Origin: an uncultured Persicobacter sp.
GTDB taxonomy: Bacteria > Bacteroidota > Bacteroidia > Cytophagales > Cyclobacteriaceae
DNA length: 64,000 nucleotides
Direction of reading: 5' to 3'
NCBI GenBank assembly: GCA_947498325.1
Contig: CANMKE010000001.1
Span: forward strand, 248,001-312,000
A program made the position numbers and the translations under genes. Shown in pieces: positions 13,189 to 14,545 of this stretch; position 1 is the stretch's first letter; each line of letters opens with the position of its first letter. Under the pieces are notes generated by a model. The model was not told where the DNA came from and did not search any database. It worked only from the letters and a program-made list of their open reading frames with translations.

Positions 13189-13549
13189 GAACCCTACCCG
13201 CAAAGGGGTATTGATTCCTTAAATTAAATTAATGATAGTTGTTTTAAAGTGCAATATTACAAAATCACAAAATAAACCATACCCTGTTTTGCTTTTTTTG
13301 TTATAAAAATATTGTTGAGGGGCCTTTGGCGTATTTATAATTTTTTGAAATTTTTTTAGCCACCTTAACTATGTTGTTAACCACCAATTTACGCCCTGAA
13401 TTAGCGTCAGGGGGTGTTTTTGCGAAGAAAAAAATCAGATCAATATTTTGGTCTTACAAAAGAACTCCCTATGTTTGCACTCGCAATACGGGAAATGCCC
13501 GTAACGAAATGAGTACTTCGGTACTGCTTTTTTATTGCCGAAACAATAC
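13189..13549. other. gap holding the tRNA-array promoter
   Basis: This stretch between brnQ and the tRNA array has no convincing gene; a 62-codon frame at 13371-13559 runs into tRNA sequence and is rejected. It holds the promoter given separately at 13448-13479. Its left part is A+T-rich and shows no other structure I can name. Confidence 0.5.
13448..13479 (+). promoter_or_regulatory. promoter of the tRNA array
   Basis: TTTTGG at 13448-13453 serves as -33 and TATGTTTG at 13472-13479 is an exact -7 match, with an 18-base spacer. It lies about 70 bases before the first tRNA, as expected for one long precursor read through to the terminator at 14181. Confidence 0.65.
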
Positions 13550-13622
13550 ACGGGTGTAGCTCAATTGGTAGAGTAGTGGTCTCCAAAACCATTGGCTGTG
13601 GGTTCAAGTCCTACCTCCCGTG
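13550..13622 (+). tRNA. tRNA-Trp (CCA), copy 1 of 4
   Basis: A 73-base cloverleaf with anticodon CCA in loop CTCCAAA, T-loop TTCAAGT and discriminator G. CCA is not encoded. The D-stem is GCTC/GAGT, anticodon stem GTGGT/ACCAT and T-stem GTGGG/CCTAC. The acceptor stem ACGGGTG/CTCCCGT has one T-T mismatch at position 6-67. All four Trp copies are identical. Confidence 0.95.
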
Positions 13623-13631
13623 CTATTTTAA

Positions 13632-13716
13632 AGAGAGGTGGCCGAGCGGTTTAAGGCGCACGCCTGGAAAGCGTGTTGGGTGCAAGCCCTCGAGGGTTCG
13701 AATCCCTTCCTCTCTG
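13632..13716 (+). tRNA. tRNA-Ser (GGA)
   Basis: An 85-base type II tRNA with acceptor stem AGAGAGG/CCTCTCT, anticodon GGA in loop CTGGAAA, a long variable arm, T-loop TTCGAAT and discriminator G. It is the only Ser tRNA in the array and lies between Trp copies 1 and 2. Confidence 0.95.
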
Positions 13717-13739
13717 CTATTCATTTACTGAATGTAAAC

Positions 13740-13812
13740 ACGGGTGTAGCTCAATTGGTAGAGTAGTGGTCTCCAAAACCATTGGCTGTGGGTTCAAGTC
13801 CTACCTCCCGTG
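13740..13812 (+). tRNA. tRNA-Trp (CCA), copy 2 of 4
   Basis: Identical to the copy at 13550-13622. Its upstream flank (TGAATGTAAAC) differs from the GAAACAATAC flank shared by copies 1, 3 and 4. Confidence 0.95.
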
Positions 13813-13822
13813 CACTTCATTC

Positions 13823-13897
13823 GGGCTCTTAGCTCAGTTGGTTCAGAGCACCTGCCTTACAAGCAGGGGGTCATTGGTTCGAATCCAATAGGGCCCA
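13823..13897 (+). tRNA. tRNA-Val (TAC), copy 1 of 2
   Basis: A 75-base cloverleaf with acceptor GGGCTCT/AGGGCCC, anticodon TAC in loop CTTACAA, T-loop TTCGAAT and discriminator A. Its 3' end forms part of the spacer hairpin at 13896-13914. Confidence 0.95.
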
Positions 13898-13914
13898 CAA
13901 AGTTTTACTTTGTG
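13896..13914 (+). repeat. spacer hairpin following tRNA-Val, copy 1
   Basis: CACAAAG / CTTTGTG with loop TTTTA, a perfect 7-bp stem that takes in the last bases of tRNA-Val. The same 19 bases recur at 14079-14097. It may guide 3' processing of the Val tRNA. Confidence 0.6.
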
Positions 13915-13923
13915 AAACAATAC

Positions 13924-13996
13924 ACGGGTGTAGCTCAATTGGTAGAGTAGTGGTCTCCAAAACCATTGGCTGTGGGTTCAAGTCCTACCTCCCGTG
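13924..13996 (+). tRNA. tRNA-Trp (CCA), copy 3 of 4
   Basis: Identical to the copy at 13550-13622; this copy opens the second unit of the tandem duplication. Confidence 0.95.
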
Positions 13997-14005
13997 CACA
14001 TATTC

Positions 14006-14080
14006 GGGCTCTTAGCTCAGTTGGTTCAGAGCACCTGCCTTACAAGCAGGGGGTCATTGGTTCGAATCCAATAGGGCCCA
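14006..14080 (+). tRNA. tRNA-Val (TAC), copy 2 of 2
   Basis: Identical to the copy at 13823-13897, followed by the same spacer hairpin (14079-14097). Confidence 0.95.
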
Positions 14081-14097
14081 CAAAGTTTTACTTTGTG
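14079..14097 (+). repeat. spacer hairpin following tRNA-Val, copy 2
   Basis: Exact repeat of the 19-base hairpin at 13896-13914. Confidence 0.6.
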
Positions 14098-14106
14098 AAA
14101 CAATAC

Positions 14107-14179
14107 ACGGGTGTAGCTCAATTGGTAGAGTAGTGGTCTCCAAAACCATTGGCTGTGGGTTCAAGTCCTACCTCCCGTG
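14107..14179 (+). tRNA. tRNA-Trp (CCA), copy 4 of 4
   Basis: Identical to the copy at 13550-13622; it is the last tRNA before the terminator. Confidence 0.95.
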
Positions 14180-14180
14180 C

Positions 14181-14220
14181 AAAAAAACGGTTATCTTTTT
14201 TGAAGGTAACCGTTTTTTTT
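14181..14220 (+). terminator. terminator of the tRNA array
   Basis: Stem ACGGTTATC / GGTAACCGT with a loop of about nine bases, then eight T. It starts two bases after the last tRNA-Trp. Confidence 0.85.
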
Positions 14221-14545
14221 ATGTCAATATTACCTGCCTTCAAAAAATTGTTTTGCTGAAATGATGCAATTTTTAGTTTTTTTAGCTCAAACAGAAAATA
14301 ACGTAATCCAATAGTCGAATTATAATATTATCAATTATTTATGTTTTTACTCCCTTAAGTAAGGGATACTATATGATTTAAATAATAAATTTTATTGCGA
14401 TTATCTCCAACGTTTATAGTAAGGTTTTTTTGTAAATTACATAAGGGTGGCAGTTTTGTGATATTTCGCTATTGTTCTGACAATGAGCGTATAATATAAT
14501 ATGATTTCATACAGTTATAAAAATTAACCAAACTCTTAACTGTAA
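14221..14545. other. A+T-rich leader of the susC locus
   Basis: No gene and no exact TAnnTTTG element is visible here. It is very A+T-rich and presumably carries the susC promoter, but I cannot place it. Confidence 0.4.

Follow-up and report, generated by a model that had tools for sequence, protein, structure and literature searches.

Four identical tRNA-Trp genes in one Persicobacter array, a probable local part of genome-wide tandem tRNA amplification

The window, i.e. the whole stretch of 64,000 nucleotides analysed here (positions 248001-312000 of contig C1 in G000, a 5.66 Mb Persicobacter assembly of 194 contigs), contains an array in which the tRNA-Trp(CCA) gene occurs in four identical copies. 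Very probably, this array is a single-promoter operon whose Trp copies stem from the genome-wide tandem amplification of tRNA genes in Persicobacteraceae, with conversion keeping the copies alike and the extra dosage serving the rRNA pool and growth. The phenomenon as a whole is already published and the Trp array is one small part of it, the striking local repeat being the visible tip of a known genome-wide state: Anda et al. (2023; PMC10645730) report 128-173 tRNA genes in Persicobacteraceae with tandem duplication as the mechanism, rRNA operons located on plasmids only, and a tie of the tRNA inflation to faster growth and to a high number of rRNA operon copies. The main text of that paper neither singles out Trp nor mentions gene conversion or homogenisation; the small addition made here, drawn from sequence comparison, would be the concerted evolution of copies located at unlinked loci.

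Organisation of the array and its transcription signals

Seven tRNA genes are found at 13550-14180 in the order Trp-Ser-Trp-Val-Trp-Val-Trp, as called by ARAGORN and in agreement with the Rfam tRNA matches. The features of the operon are as follows:

13446..13477, + strand, probable tRNA operon promoter (TTG at 13448-13450, 19-base spacer, TATGTTTG at 13470-13477)
13488..13536, + strand, leader with two hairpins, the second being AGTAC-TTCG-GTACT followed by GCTTTTTT (fold z -2.03 for 13440-13549)
13550..13623, + strand, tRNA-Trp(CCA) copy 1 (ARAGORN, Rfam)
13632..13717, + strand, tRNA-Ser(GGA) (ARAGORN, Rfam)
13740..13813, + strand, tRNA-Trp(CCA) copy 2 (ARAGORN, Rfam, sequence comparison)
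13819..14181, + strand, Val-hairpin-Trp unit duplicated in tandem (exact identity of 180 bases at an offset of 183)
13823..13898, + strand, tRNA-Val(TAC) copy 1 (ARAGORN, Rfam)
13924..13997, + strand, tRNA-Trp(CCA) copy 3 (ARAGORN, Rfam, sequence comparison)
14006..14081, + strand, tRNA-Val(TAC) copy 2 (ARAGORN, Rfam)
14107..14180, + strand, tRNA-Trp(CCA) copy 4 (ARAGORN, Rfam, sequence comparison)
14181..14222, + strand, intrinsic terminator closing the operon (fold of 14175-14230: -21.3 kcal/mol, z -6.53)

All four Trp copies exhibit the canonical fold and the CCA anticodon (ARAGORN, RF00005), score 65 bits each in the Rfam search and carry U.U at the acceptor pair 6-67. They are identical over 73 bases, or 74 when the single templated 3' C is counted, so that the sequence-only reading was right both about four tRNA-Trp(CCA) genes in one array and about their 73-base identity. 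The 183-bp tandem duplication it described stands as regards the repeat itself, with a period of 183 (2.4 copies, 99% matches) and an exact identity of 180 bases between 13819-13998 and 14002-14181 at an offset of 183; the two units it named measure 184 and 183 bp, since the Trp-Val spacers differ (ACTTCATTC and ACATATTC). Besides, Trp copies 1, 3 and 4 have in common an 84-base exact match including ten leader bases, the leader of copy 2 being different.

Regarding transcription, the TTG-19-TATGTTTG pair upstream of the array is what we take to be a likely -33/-7 promoter of the Bacteroidota type. The TATGTTTG box is retained in the congener Persicobacter sp. CCB-QB2 (G001) and in the genome G011, and TA..TTTG occurs upstream of 18 of the 24 tRNA loci of a second genome of the same species, G064 (shuffle mean 2.4). 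With the promoter-like pair at 13446-13477 on one side and the strong terminator at 14181-14222 on the other, the array has the look of a single transcription unit, and the seven genes would be co-transcribed from one promoter. A longer form, TA..TTTGCA, lies near the start of 14 of the 24 G064 tRNA loci (L105-L124, L126-L129; shuffle mean 0.1), is often followed by TCC, corresponds to 13470-13479 in the window and may be a discriminator or start region common to these loci. As for the leader, its second hairpin together with GCTTTTTT looks terminator-like by form, and the CCB-QB2 array also has a related leader, in which the hairpin-like stretch differs. With this UUCG-loop hairpin and the T run after it, both placed before the first tRNA, the leader (window 13488-13536) resembles an attenuator.

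Conservation of the array in the species and its relatives

A fifth identical tRNA-Trp gene was found in G000 on contig C15 between tuf and secE-nusG (neighbours named by eye), tuf-Trp-secE-nusG being the usual tRNA-Trp location. The same-species genome G064 (6.1 Mb, 10 contigs) likewise carries a fifth Trp gene; it is 99.1% identical to the window in an alignment of 17,004 bases, with the seven tRNA genes in the same order. Both strains most likely belong to Persicobacter psychrovividus, for which 173 tRNA genes with a largest cluster of 22 are published (PMC10645730), figures that the 171 tRNA genes and 22-gene cluster of G064 fit; the paper gives 13 replicons or scaffolds for this species, vs. 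10 contigs for G064.

The window strain and CCB-QB2 are of the same genus. At the matching place, CCB-QB2 holds Trp-Ser-Trp-Val-Trp-Ser, in addition to a tuf-secE Trp copy, and two transporter genes and a SusC-like gene neighbour the array in both genomes; the two transporters resemble carriers of branched-chain amino acids, as judged by eye. The sequence-only reading had proposed a recent amplification or conversion, of which the homogenisation of the copies and the duplication of Val-Trp in tandem stand; the event is not recent at the strain level, since the layout is also in G064 and three array copies are already present in the congener. As Trp-Ser-Trp-Val-Trp is common to both species, this older core would be ancestral, one Val-Trp unit having presumably been gained in the window species and the final Ser in CCB-QB2.

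That reading had also flagged the array as an assembly-sensitive repeat, and the copy number could in principle be an artefact, as the assembly holding the window does break at tRNA arrays: a tRNA gene is found 250 bp or less from 28 contig ends of G000, and 48 of its 83 RF00005 matches lie as close to an end, a zone that holds only about 1.7% of the genome. The caution applies to many other G000 arrays. For the Trp array itself, the artefact is largely refuted and hardly credible, given the identical layout at 99.1% identity in the second, 10-contig assembly of the species and the related array in CCB-QB2, a genome reported as PacBio-sequenced (PMC10645730).

The array could also be thought mobile or horizontally acquired, after the manner of the arrays of Mycobacterium, Anabaena and others, as the Persicobacter arrays are similarly large and dense. 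This is highly improbable, however, considering the synteny conserved with CCB-QB2 and the few anticodons per array, and PMC10645730 itself sets the Persicobacteraceae arrays apart from the Mycobacterium/Anabaena group, whose anticodon repertoire is larger. Searching a plasmid collection with the array yielded no record covering 80% of the query, the matches being scattered and at the level of single tRNAs.

In wider relatives, a single Trp gene is the norm, in line with the claim that most bacteria have one: among 390 family genomes searched for tRNA-Trp, 224 of the 235 with a match had one and 11 had at least two, on the basis of the best two candidates per genome, and the 155 without a match at E 1e-7 are not counted as lacking tRNA-Trp. 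In a set of 39 genomes, a match was found in 36, with five in G000, four in CCB-QB2, two each in G005, G010 and G011, one plus a 25-base partial match in G026 and one in each of the other 30. The whole-genome count that the sequence-only reading had called for comes to five identical genes in G000, five in G064 and four matches in CCB-QB2.

In G005 (C248/C218) and G010 (C52/C109), the contigs break at tRNA-Trp, between the tuf side and the nusG side, a pattern that points to a small tandem duplication of the Trp gene in these genomes. G011 holds Trp-Thr-Thr-Thr-Thr-Trp, and a search of the genus around it returned no second genome. Upstream of the nusG match at 1501 of its locus L132, the tuf-secE gap contains acceptor-like ends and an intact-looking T-arm sequence, other sequence replacing the D and anticodon arms; no tRNA-Trp is called there by ARAGORN, no Rfam tRNA match is found and the free fold lacks the T-arm, so that this remnant may be a tRNA that has decayed or a processing signal that was retained.

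Amplification across the tRNA complement

The genome-wide state would account for what seemed particular to Trp. Counted by ARAGORN on 24 extracted loci, as the tRNA family searches score a limited number of candidates (150 for one genome, 67 in a search of 60 genomes), G064 has 171 tRNA genes, mostly in tandem arrays, the largest cluster comprising 22 genes; this falls within the published range of 128-173 genes, and the fragmented G000 gives 83 matches, which indicates how much tRNA amplification draft assemblies hide. Among the RF00005 matches listed, CCB-QB2 has 151 and G011 137. By amino acid, the G064 genes include Met 19, Leu 16, Val 15, Thr 12, Gly 12, Arg 11, Ser 10, Glu 10 and Trp 5, among others, and single classes reach eight genes for Asn, Gln and Phe and nine for Leu(CAA). 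The Trp array is one among many and not the largest, with nothing special about Trp.

An unusual demand for Trp decoding or a regulatory dosage of tRNA-Trp, both put forward from the sequence alone, would be alternative drivers of the array. Three array Trp copies are retained in the congener, and Trp has 4.67 genes per percent of residues, more than most amino acids and third behind Met and Cys. Yet Cys is similar at 4.94, Trp makes up just 1.07% of residues in the 42 window ORFs, and many classes are amplified equally or more, including Asn (8), Leu(CAA) (9) and Val (15). Since most tRNA classes are tandemly amplified, neither demand nor regulatory dosage is called for, and selection specific to Trp is very unlikely as the driver. 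Across 18 amino acids, with residue use taken from the 42 window ORFs only and with Ile and Ala excluded, as PMC10645730 places such genes on rRNA plasmids, tRNA gene number follows residue use (Spearman 0.53, p 0.023; 0.71, p 0.0016 without Met). The high ratio of Trp, like those of Cys and Met, means that simple proportionality is not exact, and there may be some Trp effect beyond it.

The reading preferred remains the genome-wide amplification. Short duplications between identical tRNA genes would lengthen the arrays, units being duplicated by unequal exchange, gene conversion would keep the copies alike, and the added tRNA genes would provide a supply that matches rapid growth and the many rRNA operons carried on plasmids, a link made in PMC10645730. 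For 16S, an Rfam search and a primer-like pattern each gave no match in any of 10 genomes, among them single-contig ones, which is read as sequence missing from the records and not as true absence. The likeness to the Persicobacteraceae inflation described there extends to the genus, most likely the species, the chromosomal tandem duplication of tRNA genes, the few anticodons per cluster and the 22-gene cluster. In Pseudomonas fluorescens SBW25 (Ayan et al., 2020; PMC7661048), tandem duplication likewise adds copies of an existing tRNA gene, but there the laboratory duplications span 45-290 kb, whereas in Persicobacter the units are short (183 bp in the Trp array) and fixed in the lineage.

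Likeness of copies at unlinked loci

Position 57 is A throughout the ten Trp genes that G000 and G064 contribute (five each) and G in the other 30 in-register rows of the alignment, three of the 43 rows (L050, L053, L060) being left out of the counts at positions 57 and 67 as an indel puts them out of register. The U6.U67 acceptor mismatch is also in ten of the ten genes of the species; in CCB-QB2, the array copies have U67 and the tuf-linked copy A67 (U6-A67), and outside the genus U67 occurs only in L035 and L049 among the in-register rows. A57 is taken as the derived state, and the U6.U67 mismatch is unusual. Besides, the tuf-linked Trp gene of the window species is preceded by the same extra AC as the array copies. 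The simplest reading would be that the tuf-linked copy was converted by array sequence, A57 being shared between the loci.

Among the Val genes, a variant in which one T-stem pair is altered occurs both in the Trp array and on G064 contig C4 and is absent from the other two Val loci, and the Thr(TGT) copies are species-specific in sequence at two loci each. Comparing the two species over 19 anticodon classes, the CCB-QB2 set being the loci among the matches listed with three Lys-like ARAGORN calls of unclear anticodon unassigned, 13 classes have no sequence in common and six have one, and copies within a species are mostly identical.

Whether ectopic gene conversion homogenises tRNA genes at loci that are unlinked, or even on different contigs, is in our judgement evenly balanced; it would have carried the array-type A57 and U6.U67 into the tuf-secE copy and hence placed the mismatch in all the Trp genes that the species was seen to have. 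The alternative may be that mutations arose independently or that a few variants were selected. If conversion is at work, tandem amplification would allow a tRNA variant with a slight defect to replace all other copies of its isoacceptor, and the cross-locus homogenisation would offer a natural setting in which to measure how bacterial tRNA genes convert one another. In the CCB-QB2 Lys array (L134), three of the nine genes have an unclear anticodon call, perhaps from sequencing indels in a T run.
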